Shown in pieces: positions 6,816 through 30,985 of a stretch of 64,000 nucleotides of DNA. Origin of the DNA: Pyropia yezoensis (lineage: Eukaryota > Rhodophyta > Bangiophyceae > Bangiales > Bangiaceae); the NCBI GenBank assembly GCA_009829735.1, contig CM020620.1:5138299-5202298 (forward strand), in the 5' to 3' direction. Each line of letters begins with the position of its first letter. Position 1 is the first letter of the stretch. The position numbers were made by a program, and so were the translations under genes. The notes below the pieces were generated by a model. The model searched no databases. It saw only the letters and a list, made by a program, of their open reading frames with translations, and had not been told where the DNA came from.

Positions 6816-7417
6816 GCCCTTGGTAGGGTGCTGTCCGCCGGGACATCCGGCTGAGGAGGTGCCCCCTCGACGGCCAGTACTCCACCTGGAGCTGGCTGCC
6901 ACCCGGTGCGGGTCCGGGTGCTCGGGGGGATACCCCCGGTGGATGCCTTGCGTTGCGCCGCTGCCCGCGAGACTCCTCGGGATGAGTGGGCAGGAAGACA
7001 CCCAGTGCTGGGGATCCCCACACAAACATACACCGGACGTGCCGGTCCCCCTTGAGGTCGCCGGGGTAGCCCCGTAGCTACGGTTGCCTCCCTCGGGCGC
7101 CCGAGTGCCTGCTCCCTGGTAGGCCTTGGGTCCTTGGGTCAACCGGAACATGGACTCCCCAACCGGTTGGTCGGCCCGCAATCTGCGGGGGTGCCTCCGT
7201 GCGCCCGCCCATGTTGGCAAGGGTTGGTGAGGGTTACCCGTCACCGGGGGAGTACCCCGTAGTCCGCACATACGGACGCGCCGTCCCGTTCCTTCGTTGA
7301 CCTGGAACTGGGTTCCAGCCGGGGCGATGTACGCTACCGTACCATGTTCATCAATCACCGGCGTCGCCGGTAGCAACAGGTGGCCCTGTTGGTCGACTAG
7401 AGGGTCACCCTCACCAA
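6803..7417 (-). pseudogene. gag: Family A gag C-terminal part, broken and cut by the gap
   Basis: This matches the gag C-terminus at 28578-29203, including the region of the CCHC zinc knuckle (near 7000-7030) and the last residues AGNE. Several indels break the frame, and the segment stops at the N gap. Confidence 0.65.
6809..6815 (-). promoter_or_regulatory. -1 frameshift heptamer at end of gag (family A)
   Basis: On the minus strand this reads GGGAAAC, followed by GAG and the gag stop TAA. It equals the site at 28584-28590, where the gag frame is intact and parses it as G GGA AAC. Confidence 0.6.
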
Positions 7418-7917: not shown

Positions 7918-8461
7918 CTCGGGGACCCACCATCAAGGACGCGAATGGTCGACTCATTCGTACGACCGCAGCGATGTCGCTGCAGGTTACCATCGGGGAT
8001 CTCACCACGGAAGTTGACTTCCTGGTATGTGAGACGCTATCGGTGCCCTGCATACTGGGGTGCACCTTCATCAACGTTCACGTTGATGCAATCCGGCCAG
8101 GCCGGAGGACCGTCGAGCTTCAAGAAGCCGACGGGACGAAGCGAGGAACACGGCTATCGTCAGGGACCTGACGCTACAAGGAAGCCACGTTAACGTGGCT
8201 GAGGTGTACGCAAGCGTCGAGCCGAAGACACTTCGGTTGGCCGAGCGAACTCGCTTTGAGCCGTTGTCAGAGACAGTCCTCCCGGTTAACTGCGACCTCG
8301 CAGGCATCTGCAGAGTCCAGTCCACCTACGGACGTACAAGCGCCATGGGTTGACCATGGCCAACGGTCTCATAGACCTCCCAGCAGGAGGGTCGTCCCTC
8401 CTAGTGATGGCGAACTATCGCCGTAAGGCAGTCACCCTCCCGAAGGGAACTATCCTCGGGA
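7918..8461 (+). pseudogene. Family A protease C-terminal fragment
   Basis: This encodes the post-active-site half of the protease (TTAAMSLQVTIGDL, then VPCILGCTFINVHVDA). A missing base near 8145 and an extra G near 8477 shift the frame relative to the copy at 26926-28569. The active-site DTGA lies in the gap. Confidence 0.7.
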
Positions 8462-11400
8462 TTGCCGAACTCTACGGAAGGAGATATCCTTACCCCTGAT
8501 AAGGAAGGTCAAGTGGAACCACTTGAAGTACTGGCGGTCACCGAGACCACCGAGCGACAGCAACCCGATGACGGGAAGCCTAACCCATCGGCGGCTCCGG
8601 CGGACCTGCCGCCAAAGGACCAAGAGGCCTTGAAGGCACTGGCCGAGGCTGACCTCGACCACCTTCCCCCTTCGGTAGCCGAAGGGGTACGACGGATGCT
8701 AAGAAAGCATGACGTTATGTGGACAGGCGGGGCCTTGGGGACCATTGGGGCAACCCAACATCGTATAGACCTGGTACCAGGCGCACGACCCGCCCGCTCA
8801 CAACCGCACCGAGCGGGACCTATGCAACGAGAGATCGTTGATGGAGAAGTGAAGAGGATGAGTGAAGCTAAGGTGATCCGACCTTCGATGTCGGAATGGG
8901 GTGCCCCAGTCGTTATTGTGCCGAAGAAGGATCAAACCCCTCGGTTTTGCATCGATTATCGACGCCTCAACTTGGTTACCAAGAAGGACTCATACCCTTT
9001 ACCAAGGATGGATGAATGCATCGACTCCCTGGGGGAGGCTACGGTGTTTACCACCATCGACTGCAACGCCGGATACTGGCAGATCCCGGTGGCGGACGAG
9101 GATATCCCCAAGACGGCATTCGTCTGTCACAGTGGCGTGTACGAGTTCCTAAGGATGCCCTTCGGATTGTCCAACGCCCCCGCTACATTCCAGCGGGCTA
9201 TCGACATCATACTGTCGGGGGTGAAGTGGCGTAACTGCCTAGTGTACCTCGATGACGTCATCGTCTTCTCGCGTAACATGGATGACCATGTACAACATGT
9301 TGACGAGGTACTCACCCTCTTGAGGAACGCCGGGGTAACCCTGCGTCTGAAGAAGTGCGCCTTCTTCCAACAGACGGTCGAATATCTGGGCCACCAGATA
9401 ACCCCTGGTAAACTAGGGGTACTCGAAGCCAATACCCGGGCACTCCGGGATGCCCGGTTCCCTAACACCCAGACGCAGCTCAAGAGCTTCCTGGGAATGT
9501 GCAATGTATACCGACGGTTCGTCAAGGACTTCGCTCGGATAGCTAAACCGTTAACGGTTCTTACGAGCAGTACCTTACCCAAGGTACTCCAACCCCCTTC
9601 GCCTAGCGAAGAGGAGGCATTCGAGTCGCTGAAGCGAGCCCTACTAGCCCCACCCGTCCTTGCGTTACCGCATAGACGGGGTACCTTCGTCATCGATGTC
9701 GATGCGTGTGATACACAAGTGGGATGCACCCTGTTACAGGGAGAGACGTTGATCGGTACCGATAACGTTATCCCGGACCTACGTCCGGTAGGGTACTTCA
9801 GCCGGACACTCAACCCGGCTGAGCGGAACTATAGTGCCACCGAGCGTGAATGCCTCGGAGTTATATGGGCAGTGCAACTGCTCCGTCCATACCTGGAGGG
9901 CTCCAGGTTCATCGTGAGGTCCGACCACGAACCCCTACGATGGCTCCTCAACCTTGGTGACAAGGATTCCGATAGCCATGGGAGGCTAGCCCGATGGAGG
10001 CTGAAGATGGCCGAGCACGACTACCGCACGGTGTATAAGGCTGGGTCAACCCACCACCTCGGAGACGCGTTGTCTCGACTCGACACCCCGAGCGGGGATA
10101 CCCGCCCGGTGGACGAGGACATCCCGGTAGTACCGGTGTGCATGGTGGGTAATGCTACCCAGGGTATGGCTGACCATACCATGGCACACCTGGCGTGCCC
10201 ATTGACCCTCGCGGACTTCCGCGAGGCACAAGCCAACGACGATGACTGTAGACGTCATCGTGCTAACCTCCTGGCCGGTACGGCCGGCATCTTCTCCGAG
10301 AACGAAGACGGACTCATATACCGGCGGGCACCCGCCGATGGACGACATCAAGTCGTGGTTCCCGTGTACTTACGGCAAGCCGTCATGGAACGAGAACATG
10401 AGAACCCTACAGCCGGACACCCGGGGGGTTCACGTATGTTCGCAGCAATGCGAAGGTTCTTCTACTGGCCAGCAATGGCCGTCGACGTGGTCGACCACGT
10501 AAGGGGATGCCACCCCTGTGCGCGTAACCGCATGAGTCTACATAGGCAGGCGTCTGCCATGAAGCTATTCCCACCTGATGGGCCCAACGAGCAAGTCGCT
10601 ATCGACATACTCGGGCCACTTCCGATAACGGAAGAAGGGAACAGGTACATCCTGGTCATGTCTGACCGCTTCACTAAGCTGTCAAGAGCGGCAGCCATCC
10701 CGAATGATACGGCATACACGATCATGAACGCAGTGGTTGACCACTGGATCAGTGCATACGGAGTCATGAAGCAACTCCTCTCCGATAACGGAGCAAACCT
10801 TACGTCGGCATTCTGCACTAAGGTCCTGGGCATGTTCGGTATCGAACCACGTCGGGCATCCGACTACCACCCGCAGTCCAACGGGCAGGTGGAGCGGTTC
10901 AACCGCACCATCGTAAAGATGCTACAGTGCTACGTGGCCGAGCACACGAACACTTGGGACAGGCTTCTGTCCGTACTCACCCTGGCATACAATGCCAGGC
11001 CACATCGGAGCACAAACATTGCTCCGCTGGAGTGGGTCATGCCACTAGGCGTCGGTAACCTGACGCTGCCGCCCGGCAGGTGCACTCGGTATGATACACC
11101 GAAGGGCCGACCCGCCGAACGCATCCACCTAGCTTGGTTGGCCAAGCTATCGTGGATGATTCCTAAGCTCAAGGGTGCCCTTGACAGAACACAACTTCGG
11201 TATAAGAAGAACTTCGACGCCCGACTACGGGTGCGCAACGCAACCCTGGTAACAGGTGACTGGGTCTATATCAGACACCAGAAGTTCCGAGGGAACAAGC
11301 TTATGCAACCGGTCAAGGGACCGTACCAGATCCTCCACAGAGATGACCACTCTGTTATCTTACACTCCGATACGGAGATCCAACGCATCAGTATGAATGA

Positions 11401-11674
11401 TGTCACACCTGCTCCGAAGCCGGAACAGCCTCAGCCGGTACCGGCTGGGTTGCTACATGAAGCTCTTACAACCCACCGGTCGGATGACCCGGTGGGACCG
11501 GATGGGATTCCATACCAAGTAGAGAGCGTGGTCGGACACACCGACCCGGACATACCAGGACCCTGGTACGTCAAGGTTATGTGGGTCGGATACGACTCAC
11601 CCACCTGGGAACAGGCGGCGAATATACCCCGCCAACTCCTCATGCCGTACATGAGGCGACGACGCCTCCTGTAA
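8462..11674 (+). CDS. pol: Family A pol: RT, RNase H, integrase, chromodomain
   Basis: This is the best intact family A polymerase frame, 1070 codons as listed. Residues are counted from 8462: RT with YLDD at about 262, RNase H from about 410 (FVIDVDA, then TERECLG and SDHEPLRW), integrase zinc region HENPTAGH...C..C at about 645-690, catalytic D, D and E at about 713, 775 and 811, and chromodomain at about 1015-1068 (YVKVMWVGYDSPTWE). The first dozen residues are out of the ancestral frame because of an indel near 8477, so the true polyprotein begins further left. The copy at 2635-5796 differs at very few residues (for example a Tyr here is Ser there, near 10368). Confidence 0.93.
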   Translation: MPNSTEGDILTPDKEGQVEPLEVLAVTETTERQQPDDGKPNPSAAPADLPPKDQEALKALAEADLDHLPPSVAEGVRRMLRKHDVMWTGGALGTIGATQHRIDLVPGARPARSQPHRAGPMQREIVDGEVKRMSEAKVIRPSMSEWGAPVVIVPKKDQTPRFCIDYRRLNLVTKKDSYPLPRMDECIDSLGEATVFTTIDCNAGYWQIPVADEDIPKTAFVCHSGVYEFLRMPFGLSNAPATFQRAIDIILSGVKWRNCLVYLDDVIVFSRNMDDHVQHVDEVLTLLRNAGVTLRLKKCAFFQQTVEYLGHQITPGKLGVLEANTRALRDARFPNTQTQLKSFLGMCNVYRRFVKDFARIAKPLTVLTSSTLPKVLQPPSPSEEEAFESLKRALLAPPVLALPHRRGTFVIDVDACDTQVGCTLLQGETLIGTDNVIPDLRPVGYFSRTLNPAERNYSATERECLGVIWAVQLLRPYLEGSRFIVRSDHEPLRWLLNLGDKDSDSHGRLARWRLKMAEHDYRTVYKAGSTHHLGDALSRLDTPSGDTRPVDEDIPVVPVCMVGNATQGMADHTMAHLACPLTLADFREAQANDDDCRRHRANLLAGTAGIFSENEDGLIYRRAPADGRHQVVVPVYLRQAVMEREHENPTAGHPGGSRMFAAMRRFFYWPAMAVDVVDHVRGCHPCARNRMSLHRQASAMKLFPPDGPNEQVAIDILGPLPITEEGNRYILVMSDRFTKLSRAAAIPNDTAYTIMNAVVDHWISAYGVMKQLLSDNGANLTSAFCTKVLGMFGIEPRRASDYHPQSNGQVERFNRTIVKMLQCYVAEHTNTWDRLLSVLTLAYNARPHRSTNIAPLEWVMPLGVGNLTLPPGRCTRYDTPKGRPAERIHLAWLAKLSWMIPKLKGALDRTQLRYKKNFDARLRVRNATLVTGDWVYIRHQKFRGNKLMQPVKGPYQILHRDDHSVILHSDTEIQRISMNDVTPAPKPEQPQPVPAGLLHEALTTHRSDDPVGPDGIPYQVESVVGHTDPDIPGPWYVKVMWVGYDSPTWEQAANIPRQLLMPYMRRRRLL

Positions 11675-11752
11675 CAACCCAACCGACACCGACTTCGGCT
11701 GTTGGGGGGTGAGGCTTATACCTACTAAGTAGGGTGTGACATGGTTACGGCA

Positions 11753-11840
11753 GACTTAGGTTTCTAAGTCAAATCAGACTTAGGTTTCTAAGTCGAACCA
11801 AGCTTAGGTAACTAAGTAGAGCTAAGCTTAGGTAACTAAG
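11753..11840. repeat. Four 24-bp hairpin units (family A, copy 2)
   Basis: The palindromes are GACTTAGGTTTCTAAGTC at 11753 and 11777 and CTTAGGTAACTAAG at 11803 and 11827. They lie in the 481-bp gap between the pol stop (11674) and the stop of the convergent antisense ORF (12156). A further palindrome, CCTACTAAGTAGG, is at about 11720-11732. Confidence 0.85.
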
Positions 11841-12155
11841 TAAAAACCTGAACCTTAATAAGTTAACTTAAAGGTAAAGGCTAACTCCGATAATATCGAA
11901 GTAACTAGGGAGCTTACACGGGAGGATGACCTCCCCAAGCCAAGACACAAAGTGAGGGAGGATAACCACCCCAAGCATGAACCAACCGGAAGAAGTTGGG
12001 CGGGAGGCAAGGCACCACTGAGCCAGAAGGGGTACTCCCCAGGGCAGCAAACAGAGGCAAGCAATGCCCCCAGCGGGGGATGAGTTTATACTCACTACTA
12101 CCCGGCTACCATAAGGGTTGCCGGGGCCCTCTCCCTCACAAACAAATAGCACTCC

Positions 12156-14603
12156 TCAGTGGGTAGACCCACTGCCCGAGGGAGGCCACTCACGCGTAAG
12201 CGCGTATACCTCCGTGCTCCACCGGTCGGCAATGTCACGACGGTCGACCACCCGAGTTACCTCGGTGCATAGCTGGACGAGGGTGCTGCGGCCAGCCTCC
12301 ACGTCCTCCAGAGCTTTCTGGAGGCGGTCCAGCACGCCACCAAAGCAACGCGCTGACCCAACCAGCGCAGCACCTGGGGGGATATCCCCCCAGCTAACAG
12401 AGAGACCCCCACGCATTGCGCGGGTAACAAGGGCGTCAACGCCTTCATACCAGAGACGGGGACCCCCGTCATGTAGGACAGGGGCGGGAGGTGACACTGG
12501 CGCAGCCAGAGGAGCCACAGGAGCCGACACGGCTACCACCGGAGCCGGTGGCACCTGATACGAGGCCCGGTAGGACCCTACCGAAGGGGCTCCACCGTAA
12601 CCACGGCGGTACTCCGCCCGACGACGGGACACCTCACGCTCCCCACCCGCAGAGCCCCACTCTCGGGGACGACGGCCAACCGCCGCAGGCATCGGGTTAC
12701 CGAACCACGGAGCAAGGACCTGAAGAGGGTCATGGATAACCATGGGAATACCCAGGTCAGGAACGGCCTCGGTGGACGCCCACCCATGGCAACTAGGCTC
12801 ACCCGGCTGAGTACGCCGGACACGCAACGAGTGACGAGGCAAGGGGGAAGCCCCAGCCTGCGGGTCCCGGCACGGGGGAAGGGCCAACACCCCAGCCCAG
12901 TTCACGGCATCGTGAACAGCCAGCAGGGCTTCGAACTCCCGGGCCAACCCGGTCTTGGCGGCTATCAGATCCACGCCCAACTGCGCGATGTGCCGACGGA
13001 CACCCGTCGGAAGATGAAACAGACGACCCTGCCGGCGGACGGACAGCAAGAAGGATGAAGCCTGCCCGAGGGTAACCTCAAGGGTGAAGGTACCCTGCAA
13101 CGGGTGGACCGGCCGGGAGGCCAACACACTCCCGAAGTATCGGAGGCAGGAGCCGGTGTCAAACCGGAAAGCAGGGGCGGGTTCCCACCCCTCCTGCCAT
13201 AGCGGCGGGCGCACGGGAGTGTATACCGGAGCACGACCGTTGCCGGTCTGCAACGCACACGTTATATCCGTGCGGAACGCATCCGCCATGACACCATGGT
13301 TACGTCGCCAACTCGACGCCGACTTCAACCCCGCCATGGGCGGGTAGGGAGCCGTCAACGACAGATACGGGGGTACCCCCGGGTAGTAGTCAAAGTCGGG
13401 ATACCGACCGGTACGGCTCACCGTCTCCCCAAACGCAACCGGCTCCGCCGCCGCCGCAATCCCCCGAGCACTAGCCGGGTAGTCAATCTCCCGCGGCAAC
13501 GCGGGGGCAATCAAGTCGCAGACCCCGAAGTTGGGGTCGAGGTAGACCTCACCCCGTCCCACCCGGGTGCGCCAGAGCTGCGCATGCCGGTCGTCCGGCT
13601 GACTCAGGATCCAATGGTGTTCCACCCGGACCGCGTTCGGCTGGTTGACCAGCCGCACCAACTCCCGCTCCCAGCATGGGTCCACCTTGACGCGCCGGGA
13701 GGATTCTCCACGGGGATGCACCAGGTGGAAGTCCACCCGCATACGCCCATCGGACTCCATCGACTCTTGCACCGTGAGGCCTCGAACCCGAGCCACCAAG
13801 TCGGACACCGACATGGCGGGTTGACCCGCCGCCACGGCGACGCCGCCACCCAACGGGGCAACCCGGGCAGGACCAGGAAGAATCGGGGGCGCCGGGGGAC
13901 GCACCACCGGCAGAGGGGCCGACGTCGGAGATGGACGAGGCCGAGGAGGAAGAAGAAGGGCGGGCGCCCGCCCGGAGTAACTCCCGGTGTCAACCGCCAT
14001 GGGAGAAGGAGCGTCTTGACCGCTCGACACCCGCGGCACCGCAGGTATGGTACCGGCGCCGGCACCACCCGTCGGCGTAGCCCCCGCCTCGGAAGTGGAA
14101 GGCACTTGGACAGCCTCCGGAGCCGGAGCCCCGGCCGTGCGGACACCCGCACCGTCTTGACCCACCGCACCGGGTGTCGCACCGCCACCACCACCCGCGT
14201 CAACGTCGGGACCGCCTCGAGGAGTCACCGCCCGGACACCCGGACCACCTTGACCAGCCGGAGTCGGCTGCGGGTCGCGACCTCCGCCGCAGGGCGGACC
14301 ATCTTGAGGTACCTGCGGTGAGCCGGCATCGGCACCAGGCCCCATCCGGGCAGCCGGCAGAGAGGGGGTAGAAGCCGCCACGCGCGGTTGACCGCCGGGT
14401 TGACCTCCGGCCGACGGCACCGTCGTGCCGCTGCACACGGACGACAGTCCTCCGGCCGACAGACGGACGGACACCGCAGGCCCGTCGTCGTCAGACGAGC
14501 TCACCCCGTAACGCGCGGCGTCGGGACCGACAGGCGCGTCGTCCTCCATCTCCTCCCCGATCAGGAGGTCTTCCTCCTCTTCAAGCACCTGGGGATAGGA
14601 CAT
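12156..14603 (-). CDS. Family A antisense ORF, full length, unknown function
   Basis: I place the start at ATG 14603-14601 (MSYPQVLEEEEDLL), giving about 815 residues; the frame is open further upstream, to 14885. The N-terminus is acidic, followed by about 250 residues rich in Pro/Gly/Ala. A globular core follows with YPGVPPYLSL, YFGSVLAS, RRQGRLFHLP and LLAVHDAVNW. A basic Arg-rich stretch and a C-terminal segment with a possible helix (VLDRLQKALEDVEAG) follow. It has no gag, pol or envelope motif. Order, spacing and residues of the core match the family B antisense ORF at 17935-19878, which argues for real coding. It could be expressed from an antisense promoter in or near the 3' LTR. I do not recognise the family. 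Confidence 0.75.
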   Translation of the reverse strand: MSYPQVLEEEEDLLIGEEMEDDAPVGPDAARYGVSSSDDDGPAVSVRLSAGGLSSVCSGTTVPSAGGQPGGQPRVAASTPSLPAARMGPGADAGSPQVPQDGPPCGGGRDPQPTPAGQGGPGVRAVTPRGGPDVDAGGGGGATPGAVGQDGAGVRTAGAPAPEAVQVPSTSEAGATPTGGAGAGTIPAVPRVSSGQDAPSPMAVDTGSYSGRAPALLLPPRPRPSPTSAPLPVVRPPAPPILPGPARVAPLGGGVAVAAGQPAMSVSDLVARVRGLTVQESMESDGRMRVDFHLVHPRGESSRRVKVDPCWERELVRLVNQPNAVRVEHHWILSQPDDRHAQLWRTRVGRGEVYLDPNFGVCDLIAPALPREIDYPASARGIAAAAEPVAFGETVSRTGRYPDFDYYPGVPPYLSLTAPYPPMAGLKSASSWRRNHGVMADAFRTDITCALQTGNGRAPVYTPVRPPLWQEGWEPAPAFRFDTGSCLRYFGSVLASRPVHPLQGTFTLEVTLGQASSFLLSVRRQGRLFHLPTGVRRHIAQLGVDLIAAKTGLAREFEALLAVHDAVNWAGVLALPPCRDPQAGASPLPRHSLRVRRTQPGEPSCHGWASTEAVPDLGIPMVIHDPLQVLAPWFGNPMPAAVGRRPREWGSAGGEREVSRRRAEYRRGYGGAPSVGSYRASYQVPPAPVVAVSAPVAPLAAPVSPPAPVLHDGGPRLWYEGVDALVTRAMRGGLSVSWGDIPPGAALVGSARCFGGVLDRLQKALEDVEAGRSTLVQLCTEVTRVVDRRDIADRWSTEVYALTREWPPSGSGSTH

Positions 14604-15178
14604 GATAACGGGTGCGGAGTCCCCCGCGCCCACAAGCCGTCGACGGCTACAACCCGGTACGGTGGGATAACCGGGACGAGCCAGGGAAGCGCGGACACCC
14701 GCGCTTATGACCACAAACGGCCACGAGAAGCGCCGCAGGCACGCGGGTCGACCCGCGCCCCACGGGGCTACGACCGCGCTCCACCCAGGCACCTGGGCGG
14801 GACGGGGCCACACCCACACACGGGGTAAGCAAGGGGGGTCACCCCCAACCGCCCCCACGCAACGCGGGCAGCCCCCGCCCCCCACTCAATCGTCCACACG
14901 AGAGGGGCCCCCCTACCACCAGGCACCTGGTGGCGGATCCGCTTGCACCACCCCTCGGAAAGGGGGGGCGTGAACAGCAACCCGCATCGGGAATTTAACG
15001 GTCCGGAAAACGGATCGTGTGTGTGTACCACGCAAAGGGGGGCACCCCCCTGAGACAACCTCGAAAAGGGGTGTCTGTCGCGACGGGGCGCAAAGCCCCA
15101 CCCGACGGGTAAACGGTCACGCGACCCACTTACATTCGGTACCCCGAATGCAACTCGACCCGAGGACGGGCCGAATCT
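14604..15178. other. Region between antisense ORF start and 3' LTR (family A)
   Basis: No separate gene is supported. The antisense frame stays open to about 14885 without a convincing start. The rest would hold the 5' leader and any promoter of the antisense gene. Confidence 0.5.
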
Positions 15179-15190
15179 AAGGGGGGGATA
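15179..15190 (+). other. Polypurine tract, family A
   Basis: The tract AAGGGGGGGA followed by TA sits immediately before the TGTAGCA that opens the 3' LTR. This is the expected site for plus-strand priming. Confidence 0.75.
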
Positions 15191-15553
15191 TGTAGCAATA
15201 TGGTTGTCCGTATTGTGACCCTAATATCAGGGGGGCTACTTCTAACCCTTAACTTTCAATTTGATAGTTCGTACTGGTCACGGTATCTATAAGTTACGTA
15301 TGACCAGAGGGACTTGCATCTTGGGGTGGAGGGTAGTTAGTAGTGTCTCCGAGGGTTTATAACGAGGGGGCCGGTGGCGAATCCACCGCCGGCCAGGGTA
15401 GAACAACAAACCCCTCCCCTTTGGGCTCCCATCTTGGTCCCGTGGCTTGCGCTCCAAGGACAGCAACCTTGGCCTCCCGGTGACGTTGGTGCCGATCCCC
15501 CTTGGTGAGTGTTCCCTGAGAGTGGACGCGCGACGGATCCCTATGGTGCTACA
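15191..15553 (+). repeat. Family A 3' LTR, 363 bp
   Basis: It begins TGTAGCA and ends TGCTACA, perfect 7-bp inverted ends. It has the same length as, and is almost identical to, the 5' LTR at 30987-31349. It carries a TTTATAA box at 15357-15363. Confidence 0.95.
15357..15363 (+). promoter_or_regulatory. TATA-like box in family A LTR
   Basis: TTTATAA stands in an otherwise GC-rich stretch about 167 bases into the LTR, a usual place for a retroelement core promoter. The matching site on the minus strand in copy 3 is 31178-31184. Confidence 0.45.
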
Positions 15554-17823
15554 GACATGTTGTCCATCCGGGGCGTCTCAGTGTTAACGAGAAGAACTTG
15601 AGGGCCATTCGTAAGGCTCAGTACCCCCGGACCCAGACCCAGATGAGGGGCTTCCTCGGGATGTGTAACGTGTACCGACGTTTCACCAAGGGCTTCGCCA
15701 AGGTGGCGAAGCCGTTGAATGAGCTAGTGAGCTCAACGCTACCGAAGAACCTGCCTCCCCCAAGTCGGGCGGAGCAGGAATCCTTTGAGACTCTTCGGGA
15801 CCTTCTGCTGAAGCCCCCCATCTTGGCTATTCCCAGGTTGGGAGGCCACTACATCCTGGATGTGGACGCTAGCTACGACCAACTAGGTTGTGTGTTGCTT
15901 CAGCAGCAGCCGGACAAGGAGTACTTGCCGGTGGGATACTTTAGTAAGGGGCTGAACTCGGCCGAGAAGAACTACGGAGTCACCGAGTTGAAAGGACTCG
16001 CAGTGGTGTGGGCGGTGACGTCACTTCGTCACTACCTGGAGGGTGAGAAGTTCCTCATCCGCTGTGACCACCGCGCGTTGCAGTTCATCTTTAAGACGGA
16101 CTGTACGAACACTCGTCTCAACCGGTGGAGGGTGCGACTGGCACCCTTCAACTTTGACATTGAATACCGACCTGGCAGGCAACATGCCCTTGCCGACGGC
16201 CTCTCTCGGGTACCTACCGAGGGGCTGGACACTAACCCAGTCGATGAGGACATCCCCATCGTGGGGGTAGTCACGCGCTCGGGTCAGGCGTTGAACCCCG
16301 AGGCGTCAGGGAACAAGAAGTACTTGCCCCTGTCCCTGGACGAGGTGGTGAAGGCCCAGGCCGAGGATCCCTTCTGCAAGTCGCAGAGGGATATACTGGA
16401 TACAGTGGTAGAGACGCGTTTCTTTCTGGGAGACGATGGCCTCCTCATGAGGAGGGGGGTATTCCAGGGGACCGAACAACTTGTCGTCCCCGCATCCCTC
16501 AAGGACAGTATCCTTGAGAGGGAGCACAACGCTCCCACGGGTGGACACCTGGGGTCTAGCAAACTGTACCAGACCCTGAGGACCAGGTACTACTGGCCGT
16601 CCATGGTGGTGGACATCTACAGTTGGGTGGCTGCCTGCACAAGTTGTGCACAGAATCGTCTGATGGAACGGCGGCCTACTACGGCTATGCTATTGTTCCC
16701 GGCCAAGGAGCCCTTCGCCGCGTTGGCGATGGACATCCTTGGGCCACTGCCCGTGACCGAGGAGGGCAACCAGTACCTCCTGGTCATCTGTGACCGCTTC
16801 ACGAAACTTACGCGAGCGATCCCACTGGCAGAGATCACGGCCATGTCGGTCGTGTCAGCCTTCCTAGATCACTGGGTTGCCGCGTATGGCATCCCAGATA
16901 GTACACTATCGGACAATGGACCGCAATTTGCGTCTGTACTGTTTCAGGGAGTGCTGGATATGTTGGGGGTTAAGGCAAACTATGCCACCCCCTACCACCC
17001 ACAAACTAATGGGCAGGTGGAGCGCTTCAACAAAACTATTGTTAGGCAGCTGCGCCACTATGTGAGTGAGCACGTGAAGACGTGGGACCAATACATTTCT
17101 ATCCTTACTACTGCCTACAATTCGCAGGTTCACTCATCTACAGGGGAAGTACCCCTCGCTTTTGTGACCCCCCGTCGCGTGCGGTCTATTGCCGTGCGGC
17201 GGTCGCTCCCAACTAGGGAGGATGGTGGCAGTACGCCTACTCCTACTGAGAGTAAGGCGGAGTTCGCCGCTAGGCTTGAAAACCTCATCCCTAAAGTCAG
17301 GGCTGAGATGGACAAAGCACAAAAGCGCTACAAGCGTACCTTTGACAAAAAGGTGCGCAATGCTAAACATGTCCCCGAGCAGGGTGACTGGGTGCTGGTA
17401 CACTCGCACACCCCAACTGGGTGTAAGCTGGTATTCCAGACGAAGGGACCGTACCAGGTCCTTCGTACTGATGGGCGGCGCTTCACCATCGAAAGTGACG
17501 ATGGGGTCCGCACAGTGAACGGACAGGACGTGGTCAAAGTTGCACCACCGCCTGCAGGCGACCCAGCTTGGGCGCGTGCTTTGGAAGCGTGGCGCCTCCC
17601 CTCACTGCCTGCGGCCAAACAGGGCCCGCAGGAGTACGTGTTCGATAAGTTCATCGACCACGGATGGGATGAAGACACTGACCGCCTCATGTTGAGGGTG
17701 CGTTGGTTTGGCTACAAAGCCAAGGATGATACGTGGGAGTATGTGGAGGACCTTCCCGCTGAGAAGGTCCGGGCGTACTGTGCCCGGAATGAGATAGACC
17801 CTAACAGCCCTCCCTCAACGTGA
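15554..17823 (+). CDS. pol: Family B pol, 3' part: RT end, RNase H, integrase, chromodomain
   Basis: The frame is open from the insertion junction (codon at 15556) to the stop at 17821-17823. It has the RT connection (FLGMCNVYRRFTKGFAK), RNase H (HYILDVDASYDQLG, then IRCDHRALQFI), integrase with a HHCC region (EREHNAPTGGH...CTSCAQNR), catalytic D, D and E in AMDILGPLP, SDNGPQF and QVERFNKT, and a chromodomain (LRVRWFGYKAKDDTWEY). It lacks the nonsense codon found at 36716-36718 in the complete family B copy. The family A insertion cuts it after the RT active site. Confidence 0.92.
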
Positions 17824-17934
17824 GGGAAGGCCGAGCAACAGTGCCAAGAGAGTGCTTCAAGTCGAAGTGGTACGCAGAGTAGCTTTTAACTACAGCCCTA
17901 ACCCTCACACTCTCACAACAAAGGCAGCTGCCAA

Positions 17935-19878
17935 CTAGGCACGCATGCTAGACTCTCCCACTCCACGGCCCTCGCCCTCACGTGGAGGCGAGCGGCGAGA
18001 CCCACGCCGATAACGGTCTCCACTCGTTGGAGGGGGCGGCGGCTCCAAGTCGGAACCGTCGCGCCCCTCACGGTCGCGCAAGTGGCGCCGACCGTGGCCA
18101 CTCTTCTGCCTGGTCTTACGCGCAAGTTTTCGACGCAGACGCTGGACAGACTCCGTCTCCGACGGGGTAGAGGACTCCGAAACGGAGTAAGACAACTCGT
18201 CTTCCGATACGGAAGGAGAGCGCCGCGAGTGTCGGCGACGACGGCGAGGAGGCGAGTATGCCCGGCTCGCGCGACGTTTGCCTCGCCCAAGTGGGGCTGG
18301 CTGGGGCATAATAGCCCCAATGCGAGCCAACTCGGCTGTCATAAACTCCGCCACCGACTCGCAACTCGCGGTCGCCACTGCAGTACGAACGCGCTCCTCA
18401 CGTTGAGGAGTCTCGGAACTCTGTAGGGTTGCGGTCGACGCGGCCAACCAGGAAATGGTGCGCACCAACGTGGTGATCATCATCTCTGAGGTTAGAGGCG
18501 TGGGCGGCAACACCAACTTGGGGTATACCGTCAGGAGGGTGGCCCCCAAGTTGGGGGACACCGGGGTGGAAGACTCCACGGCCACGCTGATCGGGATGTT
18601 CCCGTGAGGTTGGAAAGGAACAGGAGGAAGCGGAGGGGCCCGCCGAGGTGGCGGTACCCGGGTGTAACTGCGACCCCGACTTGGGGCCCCCGCAGTGGGT
18701 TGAGTCATATGGTCATCATAGGACGGCACGGCCATAACTATGGGCTTGTCCGGGGGTGGCGCAGTGTGGCGATCCACCCCCGGGGCATACGCGTAGTCCC
18801 CGATGCCCAACCCCTCTCGTAGGACCACACGGCCGTCGTGAAGTTCACGAGCGACCCACACGAACTGGCGAAGTGCGCCATCGTCCTTGGGCCCACGAGT
18901 GGGGCGGCGCAACTTGTGCTCAATGCTCTCCCACTCGATAAACTTATGGAGCCGGAGCATCTCCTCAAGTAGAGTGAGTTGTCCTGATGAGCACCCCTCA
19001 GCAACTAGCTGAGGGGTGAGCTGTTCCAAACCTTGGAGGAGCCGGAGGGGGAGATGCCAGAGCATCCCCCGCCGCTGAACACAGGACACCCAGGTCGACA
19101 TGACCTCGAGGAGCCACTGGGTGGCCAACATGGCCCACACCAGGTGATCAGGGGCAGCCGTCAACATGACGGAGCCGAAGTGGTCAAGCAACCGTGGCAA
19201 CAACGCCGGGAACCCGTAGGGGACCTCAACTTGAGGCCACCACTCGGGCTTCTTCGGATAGTACTGCTCCTTACTGGCAGCAGACTGTTGAGGAAGCTCA
19301 AGTTGAGCCGAGGTCACCAAGTAGGGACCTCGCCGGAAGTCTTTCTCCATCCGCACATCAAAGTGATGAGTGTGTGGATCGGCCTCGTGGAGGTACGGTG
19401 GGCGAGTTGCCACAGCGTCCCACGTGAAGGTCGGCAAGTCGCCGGGACCCGGGATAGTTCCCCCGCGGTCCACCATGGCCTTGGCACGCTGAACGTCCTC
19501 AACCTCCTCATCGTCCAGGATGGCAAACTGGTCCGTCCTGAAGCCGGCAGGGAACCCGACCCTACGGGGATACTTCTCCCGTAGGCGGTCCCATACCCGG
19601 CCCATCGCTGCGCCAAGTCGGCCACAGCGAAGAACAGTCAGCCCCTCCTCATTGAGAGGCCAAGCGGGGTAAAACCACCGCCCCAAGGCCTCACGCGGGA
19701 CAACTTGTCCCGCCTCCGGGGGAGACCCCGCCGTCAACCCAAAGCCGGGTGACGCGGGAGTCCCATCCCCCGGAGCGATCGCGGAGCCCCCGCCGGAAGT
19801 CCCAGCGGGTGCTGCCCCGTAGGAGGTATCCTCCATGCGCTCGTCAAGAGAGTCCGTCTCCACTCCCGGAGTCGCCAT
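17935..19878 (-). CDS. Family B antisense ORF, full length, unknown function
   Basis: I choose ATG 19878-19876 (MATPGVETDSLDERMED) because an acidic ERMED/EEMED motif follows in both families; the frame is open to 20049. The product is about 647 residues. A globular core (about residues 60-350) includes RPPYLHEADP, HFGSVMLTAAP, QRRGMLWHLP and MLRLHKFIEW. A Pro-rich linker follows, then a C-terminal tail with many RS/SR dipeptides and Arg runs (RRRRRHSRRSPSVSEDE), like SR-type RNA-binding tails. It converges on pol with a gap of only about 110 bp. It has no gag, pol or envelope motifs, and I do not recognise the family. The RS tail suggests nuclear or RNA-related work, but that is inference. 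Confidence 0.75.
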   Translation of the reverse strand: MATPGVETDSLDERMEDTSYGAAPAGTSGGGSAIAPGDGTPASPGFGLTAGSPPEAGQVVPREALGRWFYPAWPLNEEGLTVLRCGRLGAAMGRVWDRLREKYPRRVGFPAGFRTDQFAILDDEEVEDVQRAKAMVDRGGTIPGPGDLPTFTWDAVATRPPYLHEADPHTHHFDVRMEKDFRRGPYLVTSAQLELPQQSAASKEQYYPKKPEWWPQVEVPYGFPALLPRLLDHFGSVMLTAAPDHLVWAMLATQWLLEVMSTWVSCVQRRGMLWHLPLRLLQGLEQLTPQLVAEGCSSGQLTLLEEMLRLHKFIEWESIEHKLRRPTRGPKDDGALRQFVWVARELHDGRVVLREGLGIGDYAYAPGVDRHTAPPPDKPIVMAVPSYDDHMTQPTAGAPSRGRSYTRVPPPRRAPPLPPVPFQPHGNIPISVAVESSTPVSPNLGATLLTVYPKLVLPPTPLTSEMMITTLVRTISWLAASTATLQSSETPQREERVRTAVATASCESVAEFMTAELARIGAIMPQPAPLGRGKRRASRAYSPPRRRRRHSRRSPSVSEDELSYSVSESSTPSETESVQRLRRKLARKTRQKSGHGRRHLRDREGRDGSDLEPPPPPTSGDRYRRGSRRSPPREGEGRGVGESSMRA

Positions 19879-20203
19879 GGCTCTCCCCAAGTTGGGGAGA
19901 GACGCTCTGGCTATCGCAGCACGAGACCCGCCTCGAGTTGAGGGGGACTCGGATCGTGGGTATACGGGTGGCCTCCCCAGCGTGGGGCGGCCCAGTGGAA
20001 GGTGAAGGGGAGGTGGTGGTGATGGTGAAGTGTGAACTGAGGAGAGCAAGCTGCCGAGTGGGCACGCTTGAGGAGAGGGGCGGTCATTGTGACCGCCTCC
20101 ACATCCGTGTTACGTACTCGATGGGGGACAGCAAGTCGCGCCCCCAACGCCGAGACGTGCGTTTACGCACCCCCTCACAGGACCGACCGGGTCGGTCGGA
20201 ACT

Positions 20204-20216
20204 GAGGAGAGGGGAG
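20204..20216 (+). other. Polypurine tract, family B
   Basis: The all-purine GAGGAGAGGGGAG lies immediately before the TGTGGCA start of the 3' LTR. The same tract precedes the LTR at 40864. Confidence 0.75.
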
Positions 20217-20685
20217 TGTGGCAGTATTGACCCCCAGGTAGGGGGGCAACACGTGCCATGCAAGGGGCGGCAGGCCACTAGCCTGATCCGTTCCTCCCCC
20301 TGCATTTGGGTCCATATTCCCTAAGTTTGGGATAGTTAGCTTAGTAGTAAATCCAACTTGGATTTGAGGGTTTTCTGCATTTATCGTCTTGAATTTTCGT
20401 GTGGCCCGGTGGGCAGGTGCTGGGGTGGGAGATTCTGAGTGGCGAGATTCTGAGTGGACCCTGGGGGGATAAGGGGAGGGACAGCGGGGCTTGGCCCTGC
20501 GTCCCCGTCCCGACCAAGAAACTGTTGGACCACACACCATCCTCTTGTTTGTCCGTGGGGGGTTTGCCCCACAACAGGGACAGAGTGTGTGCGACTTGCA
20601 CTTCTTCCGGTTCCCCCGACACGGGAGGCAGCCCTAGCACACCGCCCCAACTTGGGTGCCGTGTGTGCTAGTGGTTTTTGCCACA
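20217..20685 (+). repeat. Family B 3' LTR, 469 bp
   Basis: It begins TGTGGCA and ends TGCCACA. It is nearly identical to the LTRs at 32014, 40864 and 61460 (the last inverted). Confidence 0.95.
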
Positions 20686-22301
20686 ACCGCAGCGCTCTTG
20701 AGCGGCGGATGCCGATAGCGGGCGCCGCCTCGAGGGAGGCGAGTAGCGTGGAGATATTGGTCGGCGACGGGCGCGGCGCCCTTCTCTCCCTGCTCTACCG
20801 CACCTATTTGGTCAGGAGGAGAAAGAAGAAGATGAGGGTGACGTCCCCCGTCCCCTCTCGAAGTTACCTTCCGCCCAAAGGCGGCGCCCGATGGGGGGGT
20901 CAGTGCCTTCACGGGTAGGTGAGGGTGCCACGTAATTGCTCTAGAAAGTTTTAATGTATTTCAAGTACTGTATTGGACAGCAGTGCGAGAGAAGAATAGG
21001 AAGTGCAAGTACGATACGGTCTCTCGCACTTGGACTTCAGGAAGGATGACGGCCCTCACGATGGCCTTGCACCGCCCGCGGCCCATCTACCATGCACGAC
21101 CAAGGTTGCCGGACAATTCTAGTAACCCAAGTATCTCATTGGGTATCCTGGTCGGGCCTCGCCCACCACGGGCAGCTGCTGGCCTGCCGTTAGTGACCGC
21201 CTCTAACGACAGGCCAGGAGCCGCTCATCTCTCGCCAATGGATTGAGGTGCTTAGCACGAACCGGGGCCGTTGCCACGTCGTTTGAGATTTTTGGTACGT
21301 GTTAACGGGTTTGTCCAGCCGGTTTGTTGTCTTCAACAACTGTGAAGATGCACTTGAAGGCCTTAAGCGTCCGATGTTGTAATTGCCGTGAGCAACTTGG
21401 GAGGCATCACACAATTGTAGACACACCTACGTGCCCCCTAATCTGTCGCCACCAAGTCGACCCATGTCCCCTACTGTCCCCAGCTCTGTCGCCACCGACG
21501 CGACCCCTGCCGCCCACCGACGCGGCGCTGCCCCCCCCGCTGCCGCCGAGGCCACCGGCTAGCCGCCGCAGGCCGCCGCTGCCGCCACTGCCGCAGCCGG
21601 CTCGCGACGAGCCCCCGGCCGCGGCCGCCCACGGCTGGCAGCCGCCCCTCCGCCGCGACCGCTCCCGGCCGGCCGCCGCCAGCACTGCGGCCAGCTGGCA
21701 AGGGCCTCCCAGCTCCTTCCCGCCCGCTTGCCGCCGCCGCCACCGCCGCTACCGCCGCCGCCGCCGCCGCCACCGCTACCGCCGCCTCTTGGCTGCTCGC
21801 CCGGGGGCGGCGGCGGCGCGGCCATCGCTGCGGCCGCCGCCGCCGGCTGGTCCCTGTCCACCCCCCACCACAAACGCCGCCGCCAGCTGGCCGTCGGCTG
21901 GCTTCAGCCCGCCCGTCGCCGCCGCGGCCGCCACCGCCAACCCCGCCAGCTAGCCGCTCCCCGCCTACCACTCCCGCCGCCGCCGCCGCCGCCACCGTCG
22001 CCGCTGCCGCCGCTACCGCCGCTGCAGCTGTCGCCGTCGCCGCTGCCGCTGCCGCCGCCGCCGCCACCACCGGCCAGTCTCTGCCCGCCCGGCGCCGCCG
22101 CCGCCGCCGCCGCCGCCGCCACTGCCGCGGCTGCCTCCGCCGGCCCGTCCCTGCCGGCACCCCGCCGCAGCCGCCGCCGCCGGCTGGCGATCGGTTGGCC
22201 GCTGCCCGACCACCACTGCCGCCAGCTGCGCCAGCCCGCGGCTCCCCACCCGGCGCCGCGTCCGCTGCTGCTGCCGCCGCCGCCGCCGCCGCCGCTGCCG
22301 C
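20686..22301. other. Host flank, noncoding then GC-rich low complexity
   Basis: The first 800 bp has ordinary composition and no supported gene. A long imperfect hairpin is at 21180-21216 (TGGCCTG... against ...CAGGCCA). From about 21490 the sequence becomes CCGCCG-type low complexity, with open frames on both strands that encode only Ala/Pro/Gly/Arg runs; I do not call a gene. The whole segment recurs inverted at 59844-61459. Confidence 0.7.
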
Positions 22302-22321
22302 CCCTACGGGAACAAAAGCGC
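22302..22321. repeat. First 20 bp of a CMC transposon terminal repeat, cut by the gap
   Basis: CCCTACGGGAACAAAAGCGC is the terminal inverted repeat of the transposon at 52757-59843. The flanking host bases are the same as at 59844, so this is the same insertion site seen from the other strand. Confidence 0.85.
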
Positions 22322-22821: not shown

Positions 22822-23925
22822 ATAACGTGTCGTTGCAGACCGGCAACGGTCGTGCTCCGGTATACACCCCCCGCGCCCGCCGCTATGGCAGGAGGGGTGG
22901 GAACCCGCCCCTGCTTTCCGGTTTGACACCGGCTCCTGCCTCCCGATACTTCGGGAGTGTGTTGGCCTCCCGGCCGGTCCACCCGTTGCAGGGTACCTTC
23001 ACCCTTGAGGTTACCCTCGGGCAGGCTTCATCCTTCTTGCTGTCCGTCCCGCCGGCAGGGTCGTCTGTTTCATCTTCCGACGGGTGTCCGTCGGCACATC
23101 GCGCAGTTTGGGCGTGGATCTGATAGCCGCCAAGACCGGGTTGGCCCGGGAGTTCGAAGCCCTGCTGGCTGTTCACGATGCCGTGAACTGGGCTGGGGTG
23201 TTGGCCCCCCCCCGGACCCGCAGGCTGGGGCTTCCCCCTTGCCTCGTCACTCGTTGCGTGTCCGGCGTACTCAGCCGGGTGAGCCTAGTTGCCATGGGTG
23301 GGCGTCCACCGAGGCCGTTCCTGACCTGGGTATTCCCATGGTTATCCATGACCCTCTTCAGGTCCTTGCTCCGTGGTTCGGTAACCCGATGCCTGCGGCG
23401 GTTGGCCGTCGTCCCCGAGAGTGGGGCTCTGTGGGTGGGGAGCGTGAGGTGTCCCGTCGTCGGGCGGAGTACCGCCGTGGTTACGGTGGAGCCCCTTCGG
23501 TAGGGTCCTACCGGGCCTCGTATCAGGTGCCACCGGCTCCGGTGGTAGCCGTGTCGGCTCCTGTGGCTCCTCTGGCTGCGCCAGTGTCACCTCCCGCCCC
23601 TGTCCTACATGACGGGGGTCCCCGTCTCTGGTATGAAGGCGTTGACGCCCTTGTTACCCGCGCAATGCGTGGGGGTCTCTCTGTTAGCTGGGGGATATCC
23701 CCCCAGGTGCTGCGCTGGTTGGGTCAGCGCGGTTGCTTTGGTGGCGTGCTGGACCGCCTCCAGAAAGCTCTGGAGGACGTGGAGGCTGGCCGCAGCACCC
23801 TCGTCCAGCTATGCACCGAGGTAACTCGGGTGGTCGACCGTCGTGACATTGCCGACCGGTGGGAGCACGGAGGTATACCGCGCTTACGCGTGAGTGGCCT
23901 CCTCGGGCAGTGGGTCTACCACTGA
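22822..23925 (+). pseudogene. Family A antisense ORF, partial, frame broken near contig end
   Basis: This corresponds to 1046-2153. Missing or extra bases in homopolymers (for example near 22830, 22935, 23050 and 23205) shift the frame several times; the last 250 residues are mostly readable to the stop near 23925. The density of indels falls away from the gap, which points to poor contig-end sequence. Confidence 0.7.
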
Positions 23926-24238
23926 GGAGTGCTATTTGTTTGTGAGGGAGAGGGCCCCGGCAACCCTTATGGTAGCCGGGTAGTATGAGTATAAACTCAT
24001 CCCCCGCTGGGGGCATTGCTTGCCTCTGTTTGCTGCCCTGGGGAGTACCCCTTCTGGCTCAGTGGTGCCTTGCCTCCCGCCCAACTTCTTCCGGTTGGTT
24101 CATGCTTGGGGTGGTTATCCTCCTCACTTTGTGTCTTGGCTTGGGGAGGTCATCCTCCCGTGTAAGCTCCCTAGTTACTTCGATATTATCGGAGTTAGCC
24201 TTTACCTTTAAGTTAACTTATTAAGGTTCAGGTTTTTA

Positions 24239-24326
24239 CTTAGTTACCTAAGCTTAGCTCTACTTAGTTACCTAAGCTTGGTTCGACTTAGAAACCTAAG
24301 TCTGATTTGACTTAGAAACCTAAGTC
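24239..24326. repeat. Four 24-bp hairpin units (family A, copy 3)
   Basis: The same array as at 2469-2556 at an offset of 21770 bases, between the antisense ORF stop and the pol stop at 24405. Confidence 0.85.
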
Positions 24327-24404
24327 TGCCGTAACCATGTCACACCCTACTTAGTAGGTATAAGCCTCACCCCCCAACAGCCGAAGTCGGTGTCGGTTGG
24401 GTTG

Positions 24405-27400
24405 TTACAGGAGGCGTCGTCGCCTCATGTACGGCATGAGGAGTTGGCGGGGTATATTCGCCGCCTGTTCCCAGGTGGGTGAGTCGTATCCGACCCACAT
24501 AACCTTGACGTACCAGGTCCTGGTATGTCCGGGTCGGTGTGTCCGACCACGCTCTCTACTTGGTATGGAATCCCATCCGGTCCCACCGGGTCATCCGACC
24601 GGTGGGTTGTAAGAGCTTCATGTAGCAACCCAGCCGGTACCGGCTGAGGCTGTTCCGGCTTCGGAGCAGGTGTGACATCATTCATACTGATGCGTTGGAT
24701 CTCCGTATCGGAGTGTAAGATAACAGAGTGGTCATCTCTGTGGAGGATCTGGTACGGTCCCTTGACCGGTTGCATAAGCTTGTTCCCTCGGAACTTCTGG
24801 TGTCTGATATAGACCCAGTCACCTGTTACCAGGGTTGCGTTGCGCACCCGTAGTCGGGCGTCGAAGTTCTTCTTATACCGAAGTTGTGTTCTGTCAAGGG
24901 CACCCTTGAGCTTAGGAATCATCCACGATAGCTTGGCCAACCAAGCTAGGTGGATGCGTTCGGCGGGTCGGCCCTTCGGTGTATCATACCGAGTGCACCT
25001 GCCGGGCGGCAGCGTCAGGTTACCGACGCCTAGTGGCATGACCCACTCCAGCGGAGCAATGTTTGTGCTCCGATGTGGCCTGGCATTGTATGCCAGGGTG
25101 AGTACGGACAGAAGCCTGTCCCAAGTGTTCGTGTGCTCGGCCACGTAGCACTGTAGCATCTTTACGATGGTGCGGTTGAACCGCTCCACCTGCCCGTTGG
25201 ACTGCGGGTGGTAGTCGGATGCCCGACGTGGTTCGATACCGAACATGCCCAGGACCTTAGTGCAGAATGCCGACGTAAGGTTTGCTCCGTTATCGGAGAG
25301 GAGTTGCTTCATGACTCCGTATGCACTGATCCAGTGGTCAACCACTGCGTTCATGATCGTGTATGCCGTATCATTCGGGATGGCTGCCGCTCTTGACAGC
25401 TTAGTGAAGCGGTCAGACATGACCAGGATGTACCTGTTCCCTTCTTCCGTTATCGGAAGTGGCCCGAGTATGTCGATAGCGACTTGCTCGTTGGGCCCAT
25501 CAGGTGGGAATAGCTTCATGGCAGACGCCTGCCTATGTAGACTCATGCGGTTACGCGCACAGGGGTGGCATCCCCTTACGTGGTCGACCACGTCGACGGC
25601 CATTGCTGGCCAGTAGAAGAACCTTCGCATTGCTGCGAACATACGTGAACCCCCCGGGTGTCCGGCTGTAGGGTTCTCATGTTCTCGTTCCATGACGGCT
25701 TGCCGTAAGGACACGGGAACCACGACTTGATGTCGTCCATCGGCGGGTGCCCGCCGGTATATGAGTCCGTCTTCGTTCTCGGAGAAGATGCCGGCCGTAC
25801 CGGCCAGGAGGTTAGCACGATGACGTCTACAGTCATCGTCGTTGGCTTGTGCCTCGCGGAAGTCCGCGAGGGTCAATGGGCACGCCAGGTGTGCCATGGT
25901 ATGGTCAGCCATACCCTGGGTAGCATTACCCACCATGCACACCGGTACTACCGGGATGTCCTCGTCCACCGGGCGGGTATCCCCGCTCGGGGTGTCGAGT
26001 CGAGACAACGCGTCTCCGAGGTGGTGGGTTGACCCAGCCTTATACACCGTGCGGTAGTCGTGCTCGGCCATCTTCAGCCTCCATCGGGCTAGCCTCCCAT
26101 GGCTATCGGAATCCTTGTCACCAAGGTTGAGGAGCCATCGTAGGGGTTCGTGGTCGGACCTCACGATGAACCTGGAGCCCTCCAGGTATGGACGGAGCAG
26201 TTGCACTGCCCATATAACTCCGAGGCATTCACGCTCGGTGGCACTATAGTTCCGCTCAGCCGGGTTGAGTGTCCGGCTGAAGTACCCTACCGGACGTAGG
26301 TCCGGGATAACGTTATCGGTACCGATCAACGTCTCTCCCTGTAACAGGGTGCATCCCACTTGTGTATCACACGCATCGACATCGATGACGAAGGTACCCC
26401 GTCTATGCGGTAACGCAAGGACGGGTGGGGCTAGTAGGGCTCGCTTCAGCGACTCGAATGCCTCCTCTTCGCTAGGCGAAGGGGGTTGGAGTACCTTGGG
26501 TAAGGTACTGCTCGTAAGAACCGTTAACGGTTTAGCTATCCGAGCGAAGTCCTTGACGAACCGTCGGTATACATTGCACATTCCCAGGAAGCTCTTGAGC
26601 TGCGTCTGGGTGTTAGGGAACCGGGCATCCCGGAGTGCCCGGGTATTGGCTTCGAGTACCCCTAGTTTACCAGGGGTTATCTGGTGGCCCAGATATTCGA
26701 CCGTCTGTTGGAAGAAGGCGCACTTCTTCAGACGCAGGGTTACCCCGGCGTTCCTCAAGAGGGTGAGTACCTCGTCAACATGTTGTACATGGTCATCCAT
26801 GTTACGCGAGAAGACGATGACGTCATCGAGGTACACTAGGCAGTTACGCCACTTCACCCCCGACAGTATGATGTCGATAGCCCGCTGGAATGTAGCGGGG
26901 GCGTTGGACAATCCGAAGGGCATCCTTAGGAACTCGTACACGCCACTGTGACAGACGAATGCCGTCTTGGGATATCCTCGTCCGCCACCGGGATCTGCCA
27001 GTATCCGGCGTTGCAGTCGATGGTGGTAAACACCGTAGCCTCCCCCAGGGAGTCGATGCATTCATCCATCCTTGGTAAAGGGTATGAGTCCTTCTTGGTA
27101 ACCAAGTTGAGGCGTCGATAATCGATGCAAAACCGAGGGGTTTGATCCTTCTTCGGCACAATAACGACTGGGGCACCCCATTCCGACATCGAAGGTCGGA
27201 TCACCTTAGCTTCACTCATCCTCTTCACTTCTCCATCAACGATCTCTCGTTGCATAGGTCCCGCTCGGTGCGGTTGTGAGCGGGCGGGTCGTGCGCCTGG
27301 TACCAGGTCTATACGATGTTGGGTTGCCCCAATGGTCCCCAAGGCCCCGCCTGTCCACATAACGTCATGCTTTCTTAGCATCCGTCGTACCCCTTCGGCT

Positions 27401-30966: not shown

Positions 30967-30985
30967 GTCCCCTGCTGCTCCACCA
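30967..30985 (-). other. Primer-binding site, family A
   Basis: The minus strand reads TGGTGGAGCAGCAGGGGAC one base after the LTR. It is complementary to a tRNA 3' end of the form ...CTGCTCC-A-CCA. The identical 19 bases follow the family B LTR at 32487. I could not name the tRNA. Confidence 0.8.

Follow-up and report, generated by a model that had tools for sequence, protein, structure and literature searches.

An antisense third protein gene in Ty3/gypsy retrotransposons of the red alga Pyropia yezoensis

Antisense open reading frames at the locus

We analyzed a window of 64,000 nucleotides from Pyropia yezoensis (GenBank assembly GCA_009829735.1, contig CM020620.1, positions 5,138,299 to 5,202,298 of the forward strand), the left two thirds of which are a nest of long terminal repeat (LTR) retrotransposons with two 500-N gaps inside. 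Two Ty3/gypsy families of this nest, A and B, each carry a long open reading frame (ORF) on the strand opposite to gag and pol, and the comparisons described below show that a Ty3/gypsy group in this Bangiales red alga has a third protein gene, antisense to the other two. The features of the window are listed in Table 1.

The antisense ORFs of copies A2 and B1 (hereafter ORF A and ORF B) lie between the integrase end of pol and the purine tract and 3' LTR, and the coordinates and orientation given in an earlier note on this DNA (12156-14603 and 17935-19878, both on the minus strand) proved to be right. The methionine taken as start is residue 95 of a 909-aa frame in A and residue 58 of a 704-aa frame in B, and by position arithmetic the antisense starts lie 0.1-0.6 kb from the LTR. 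The LTRs of the two families, described earlier as different, have similar ends (they begin with TGTRGCARTAT and finish with GCYACA), and a putative primer-binding site, TTGGTGGAGCAGCAGGGGAC, directly follows the 5' LTR and is identical in A3 and B2. On the antisense strand each LTR holds one TATA-like site, too weak to use as a promoter. With at least 250 codons between pol and the 3' LTR, both ORFs belong by size and place to the class of antisense extra ORFs termed aORF-3R or eORF-3'R, and the presence in most copies of a family that goes with this class was found in family A (18 of 20 copies selected by integrase).

Table 1. Retrotransposon features of the window (positions are those of the window)
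Feature	Position	Strand	Remarks
A1, family A copy	1-7417	minus	
A1 antisense ORF	3-2150	plus	cut by window start; element on minus strand
A2, family A copy	7918-15553	plus	
A2 pol, RT-RNaseH-integrase, very weak chromodomain-like end	8462-11674	plus	Pfam
A2 antisense ORF	12156-14603	minus	815 aa from Met; frame open to 14885
Part of ORF A used as conserved-domain query, with PPYL...FGSV...HLP core	12651-13793	minus	
A2 3' LTR, TGTAGCA...TGCTACA	15191-15553	plus	purine tract AAGGGGGGGA just before
B1, family B copy	15554-20685	plus	5' side interrupted by A2
B1 pol, RNaseH-integrase-chromodomain-like	15598-17823	plus	5' side cut by A2 insertion
B1 antisense ORF	17935-19878	minus	647 aa from Met; frame open to 20109
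B1 purine tract GAGGAGAGGGGAG	20204-20216	plus	
B1 3' LTR	20217-20685	plus	
A3, family A copy	22822-31349	minus	
A3 antisense ORF remnant	22927-23922	plus	
A3 gag	28578-30767	minus	
A3 5' LTR	30987-31349	minus	
B2, family B element	32014-41334	plus	both LTRs (32014-32484, 40864-41334; 99.4% identical); CCCCC flanks
B2 gag, zinc knuckle	32580-34550	plus	
B2 protease-RT-RNaseH-integrase region	34547-38530	plus	two frames
B2 antisense ORF	38642-40536	minus	two frames; about 60 bp of B1 missing
B3, inverted near-copy of B1	64000-61460	minus	
B3 antisense ORF	62038-63999	plus	cut by window end

Homology of the two antisense proteins

Aligned by BLASTP, the antisense proteins of A and B gave an E-value of 6e-11 with 24% identity over 230 aa, and when each of the six frames of the pol-to-LTR region of A was compared with each of the six of B, the annotated pair alone was significant (E 2.5e-9; next best 0.45). 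The score of the A/B antisense domain was 16.8 standard deviations higher than that of 1000 shuffles. The homology that the earlier note had proposed by eye is therefore upheld, by BLASTP as well as by the profile-to-sequence searches below. The same note had taken a difference in gag between the families as a sign that the antisense protein is conserved, and this contrast does not stand: gag is equally similar (25% identity over 220 aa, E 1.5e-14). Elsewhere A and B share 35% identity in protease-reverse transcriptase (RT), 57% in RT and 41-44% in the integrase region. With 24% over 230 aa for the antisense protein and 25% over 220 aa for gag, the two have diverged between A and B at about the same pace.

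The similarity lies in a core that runs from PPYL through an R-rich turn and VE.P.G...LP...YFG..L to a run ending L..LP..LR..I..LG, and no homology between families was detected when the C-terminal parts were compared.

Occurrence in further families and co-inheritance

We searched the genome (107.5 Mb in 11 contigs, three of them 29, 34 and 44 Mb) for the integrase core (PF00665), yielding 150 scored matches out of 3515 candidates, and fetched the 5 kb downstream of eight of these 150 integrases, hand-picked mostly for long pol frames and diversity and without regard to the antisense strand. An antisense frame of 326-995 aa directly followed pol at all eight loci, so that the survey of related elements suggested in the earlier note found the ORF downstream of integrase in 8/8 cases. 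Three loci were assigned to a family C (L087 and L090 with 663 aa each, L088 with 326 aa after an internal deletion), and one each to C' (L092, 651 aa), C'' (L089, broken, 360 aa), B', a relative of B (L093, 725 aa), D (L094, 779 aa) and E (L091, 995 aa). Among 30 other integrase loci, six had an antisense frame at their edge that was matched by a profile of the C-terminal part of the C protein. Candidate LTRs starting TGTRGC follow the antisense ORF in B', C, C', C'', D and E and end, where the end is visible, in GCYACA (only the start is seen in D); they were picked among several chance matches to the pattern by an adjoining purine tract or a common alignment end.

Pfam matches to RT, RNase H and integrase were in the Ty3/gypsy order in A, B2 (in two frames), B', D and E, and C was placed in Ty3/gypsy because its pol is 42-44% identical to those of A and B. 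The chromodomain (PF00385) was matched weakly, with E-values of 4e-4 to 1e-3 in B, D and E, under the Pfam cut-off, and of 0.26 in A. The elements are probably chromovirus-like, with a pol lineage different from that of the Retand-type plant elements.

We then built core profiles leaving one family out each time and searched them against 1138 ORFs. The family left out was found at 7.7e-23 for D, 2-3e-8 for A, 2e-24 for B, 1e-22 for B' and 3e-16 to 1e-19 for C, C' and C''. The antisense protein thus has a homologous core domain in A, B, C and D, and its ends are variable. The pol tree and the tree of the antisense core were identical in topology for A, B, B', C, C', C'' and D, from which it follows that gene and element were inherited together in A-D; most simply, the ancestor shared by A-D would already have had the gene, which has since been kept with its element.

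Family E is a marginal case. Its E-value was below 1e-3 in only two of the four leave-out profiles (1e-4 without A and 7e-4 without D, next to 0.33 without C, 3.9e-4 with the full profile and no appearance, at E up to 1, with the profile lacking B), and adding E makes the pol and antisense trees differ. The match spans about 90 aa at the expected place, and the E ORF is possibly a core homologue judging by this similarity. A different history, in which the families independently captured unrelated antisense ORFs, could draw on the 314 groups into which plant Ty3/gypsy extra-ORF proteins fall, for which multiple sources have been suggested (PMC6317226), on the C-terminal parts that share no detectable homology across families and on the marginal score of E. 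It fails to account for the homology of the A-D core in the leave-one-out profiles and for the agreement of core and pol trees without E, and we consider it highly improbable: independent capture is already contradicted for A-D and may hold for E.

The pol frame of E has a further peculiarity. It runs past the chromodomain-like end of integrase (L091:3-788 on the plus strand; C1:34415003-34415788) and continues as a DNA N6-adenine methyltransferase domain of the Dam type (PF05869; the match, at E 8e-8, passes the cut-off), and three further integrase matches lie in 1673-aa frames like that of E. A Ty3/gypsy element with a Dam-type methyltransferase domain would be unusual, and the literature searched contained no such case.

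Selection on the antisense protein

Purifying selection was measured in A, B and C. For family A, 20 loci were taken from the upper half of 104 scored integrase matches, with a 1.64-kb ORF region each, of which 18 keep at least 1.2 kb; L072 (0.72 kb) and L081 (39 bp) were left out, resulting in a test of 18 copies and the window copy. Variants private to one copy comprised 90 nonsynonymous changes, 37 synonymous changes and 2 stops, compared with 90, 35 and 4 expected when the same mutations are placed at random (ratio 0.94), and shared variants comprised 9 nonsynonymous and 24 synonymous changes, compared with 23 and 10 expected (ratio 0.16; Fisher P 6e-6 for shared against private variants). 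Because shared variants are mostly synonymous and private ones neutral, single A copies decay neutrally after insertion, and the lineage that produces the copies is under purifying selection on the antisense protein.

For family B we used 28 copies (1 from the window, 7 and 20 fetched). Of the shared variants 8 were nonsynonymous and 44 synonymous, where 34 and 17 were expected (ratio 0.09); for all variants together the counts were 111 and 110, where 150 and 65 were expected (ratio 0.44). In the less biased comparison of B with B', which was found through its integrase, dN was 0.031 and dS 0.170 (ratio 0.18), and the same alignment columns read in the other five frames have stops in 14-29 codon pairs. 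Within the C group dN/dS was 0.26-0.27 for C and C' (0.08 in pol), 0.30 for C and C'' and 0.44 for C' and C''. The proposed start of ORF B is supported as well, since the 54 codons beginning one before the methionine have 0 nonsynonymous and 11 synonymous changes, in comparison with 8 and 8 (ratio 0.43) in the 76 codons upstream of them. Among the scored copies, which are the best candidates of the genome, matches were free of stops in 56 of 63 for B, 106 of 108 for A and 123 of 128 for D. The earlier note had proposed that the antisense protein is conserved for function and that dN/dS across copies would tell; in shared or diverged lineages the ratio is well below 1, in agreement with it.

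Several of these data pull the other way. In two of the 20 A copies the greater part of the ORF, or almost the whole of it, is gone, and of the 18 tested, 10 align without gaps, 8 are gapped and 1 has an in-frame stop. Choosing the B copies by their protein similarity brings in a bias against altered proteins, dN/dS was 0.76 on few changes for the very close pair L087/L090, and codons of poorly matching windows were dropped from the dN/dS estimates (none for B/B' and C/C'). Low ratios were also obtained for the mirror frame on the sense strand, 0.28 for B/B' and 0.39 for C/C', and recur there in the A and B variant tests (range 0.17-0.39).

This last point bears on the idea that the ORFs are mere by-products of GC-rich, codon-biased DNA from which no protein is made, as does the composition of the region (60-69% GC) with its mirror ORFs on the sense strand. 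The mirror frame, however, has stops in 29 (B/B') and 27 (C/C') codon pairs, the homology across families is confined to a single frame, and the shared changes in that frame are strongly synonymous. An origin of the ORFs as by-products is already contradicted, and we give it almost no credence. The antisense RNA, and not a protein, might alternatively be what functions, for example by pairing with the genomic RNA, to whose 3' part such a transcript would be complementary; an RNA function is raised for other elements in PMC7264820. Selection here follows amino acids and not bases, and the similarity across families is at the protein level, which makes a functional RNA very unlikely.

Relatives, domains and structure

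A four-sequence profile was searched against a collection of 5.8 billion proteins (7998 scored candidates), yielding 16 proteins, six of them from Pyropia vietnamensis with 49-61% identity to A and seven others, perhaps from further species, with 54-68% identity to A. Of the named relatives, hypothetical proteins of P. vietnamensis match antisense protein A best, and among the named matches in the scored candidates none was from outside Pyropia; a search with B only gave one relative, 96% identical, among 7995 scored. In the Protein Data Bank (PDB) the four-sequence profile matched 0 of 177,635 sequences. With E-values of up to 1 allowed, TRP28 (PF04195) was matched by none of A, B, 18 members of the A alignment and six further antisense ORFs. 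The largest 19-residue hydropathy mean was 0.98-1.54 in seven antisense proteins, and by this simple threshold none has a clear membrane segment, so that the proteins are not env-like by this test. Basic, arginine-rich stretches occur in B, B' and E (pI 9.3, 9.4 and 11.0), and the antisense proteins of A, C, C' and D have a pI of 6.0-6.8. RS/SR dipeptides number 28 in E and 7 in B, which is no richer in them than A, C and D (5-11).

The rapid divergence between A and B, at the pace of gag, would also fit a second structural protein, gag-like or particle-associated, made from integrated copies and joining the particle in trans. Its architecture recalls gag in the low-complexity head, the helical core (read only from poor structure models), the Pro-rich linker and the basic tail of B and E. 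Set against this, hhalign of the antisense core with the aligned gag proteins of A and B returned a probability of 0.1%, no zinc knuckle or other Pfam domain was matched in the antisense proteins, and gag is already present in A and B. We judge a structural protein unlikely.

Other features of the window

The family A copies at 1-6390 and 7918-14308 stand head to head across a 500-N gap and are 99.8% alike, possibly an effect of assembly. The downstream flanks of B1 and B3 (20241-22321 and 59824-61904) are inverted and 100% complementary over 2.1 kb, pointing to a segmental duplication or an assembly artefact and not to two transpositions. An array of 80-bp tandem repeats (31335-32150 and 41302-42290) is split by the insertion of B2, with CCCCC on both sides. 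The window also has G runs of about 20 or more in a stretch of 80% GC (42435-42864), a 369-bp unit repeated three to four times in tandem (43444-44731) and, on the minus strand, a frame with a weak match to Transposase_21 (tnp2; E 2.3e-6, just below cut-off) at 57668-59227. In the genome, family A integrase matches are sometimes paired, with 5-11 kb between two matches of the same orientation (C1:26868650 and C1:26876614 are one such pair), which look as if elements shared LTRs in tandem.

Proposed role of the antisense gene

We regard it as very likely that the antisense ORF is a translated, selected gene, its expression being inferred. The ORF would be untranslatable from the genomic RNA and, being antisense to gag-pol, would need an mRNA of its own from integrated DNA, with a putative start within the 3' LTR or close to it. 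The protein would then be a trans-acting accessory factor that regulates the expression of the element, its RNA or its integration, a role that we favour among those considered, tentatively and by analogy; a nuclear protein bound to nucleic acid would be in keeping with the arginine-rich tails of B and E. Taken jointly, an explanation by a selected and co-inherited antisense gene with its own putative mRNA and a trans-acting product appears likely to us.

Part of what counts against this account concerns the protein itself. Pfam and NCBIfam gave no match to the antisense proteins above curated cut-offs, AlphaFold2 models of the A domain (18 sequences) and the B domain (13) had a mean pLDDT of 36 and were unusable, and A, C' and D are without basic clusters, A and D departing from what the tails of B and E suggest. 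With no known domain and unusable models, the regulatory role is drawn from analogy and from the tails of some families.

A factor that frees the element's copies from host repression would fit the fast divergence between families with a preserved core, and expression from integrated DNA would suit it. So would the many near-identical copies, at least 63 of B, 108 of A and 128 of D. The VANC proteins of the Arabidopsis VANDAL transposons are a precedent for such anti-silencing. The antisense proteins have no methyltransferase, demethylase or chromatin domain, and we hold an anti-silencing factor to be somewhat unlikely. Coming back to the trans-acting regulator, a further-reaching version would have the red-algal Ty3/gypsy lineage ambisense by design, each element having required, since before the split of A-D, a third protein for which integrated DNA, through a promoter at the 3' LTR, is the sole source; we see this as nearly balanced, leaning slightly towards doubt. 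If true, the elements would have a two-phase life cycle, with a sense RNA for copying and an antisense mRNA for a trans-acting factor, and this cycle would be an ancestral trait of the whole lineage and not an occasional capture.

Comparison with known systems

Antisense ORFs in LTR retrotransposons have been known since the late 1990s (works cited in PMC7264820), so far with no agreement on whether they do anything. One lineage now has a measured answer: private changes in A are neutral and shared ones mostly synonymous, and in A-D the gene follows pol. With no fewer than three families present in many near-identical copies in one 107-Mb genome, the question can be tested directly in the alga. 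The work also adds a protein family that, in the searches made, has no named relative outside Pyropia.

The nearest likeness is with the plant Retand/Tat elements (Retand TRP28, Grande gene23, RIRE2), whose antisense ORF is described as of unknown function with a regulatory role suspected (PMC11963269, PMC7264820); according to PMC11963269, 97% of Retand clusters have a TRP28-coding antisense ORF. They differ in having a plant and not a red-algal host, and Retand is not a chromovirus, whereas the present elements are probably chromovirus-like. The present protein has no match to TRP28 (PF04195), and its selection and co-inheritance were measured here. With the plant and algal chromoviruses (Chlamyvir, CRM, Tekay) our elements share the Ty3/gypsy domain order and, by weak matches, probably the chromodomain-like integrase end; in plants, however, extra ORFs are reported in most non-chromovirus OTA elements (PMC6317226). 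Chromoviruses are stated to occur even in green and red algae (PMC3605345), and a 2012 survey reports that the Porphyra yezoensis data of that time contained no chromodomain from a retrotransposon (PMC3350952).

Outside plants, Boty of Botrytis cinerea is an LTR retrotransposon with an antisense gene, brtn, between pol and the 3' LTR (PMC7264820). Its host is a fungus, and we liken it to the present elements by gene position, not by the sequence of the brtn protein. The human T-cell leukemia virus (HTLV) carries the antisense gene HBZ. This protein gene has an antisense promoter in the 3' LTR (PMC7264820, PMC11963269); HTLV is an animal retrovirus for which antisense transcription has been described, whereas the present ORFs are known from sequence alone. 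The literature searched contained no report of this antisense protein in red algae. What is new here is an antisense gene in red-algal chromovirus-like elements, in the same position and orientation as the known antisense ORFs of plants and fungi.

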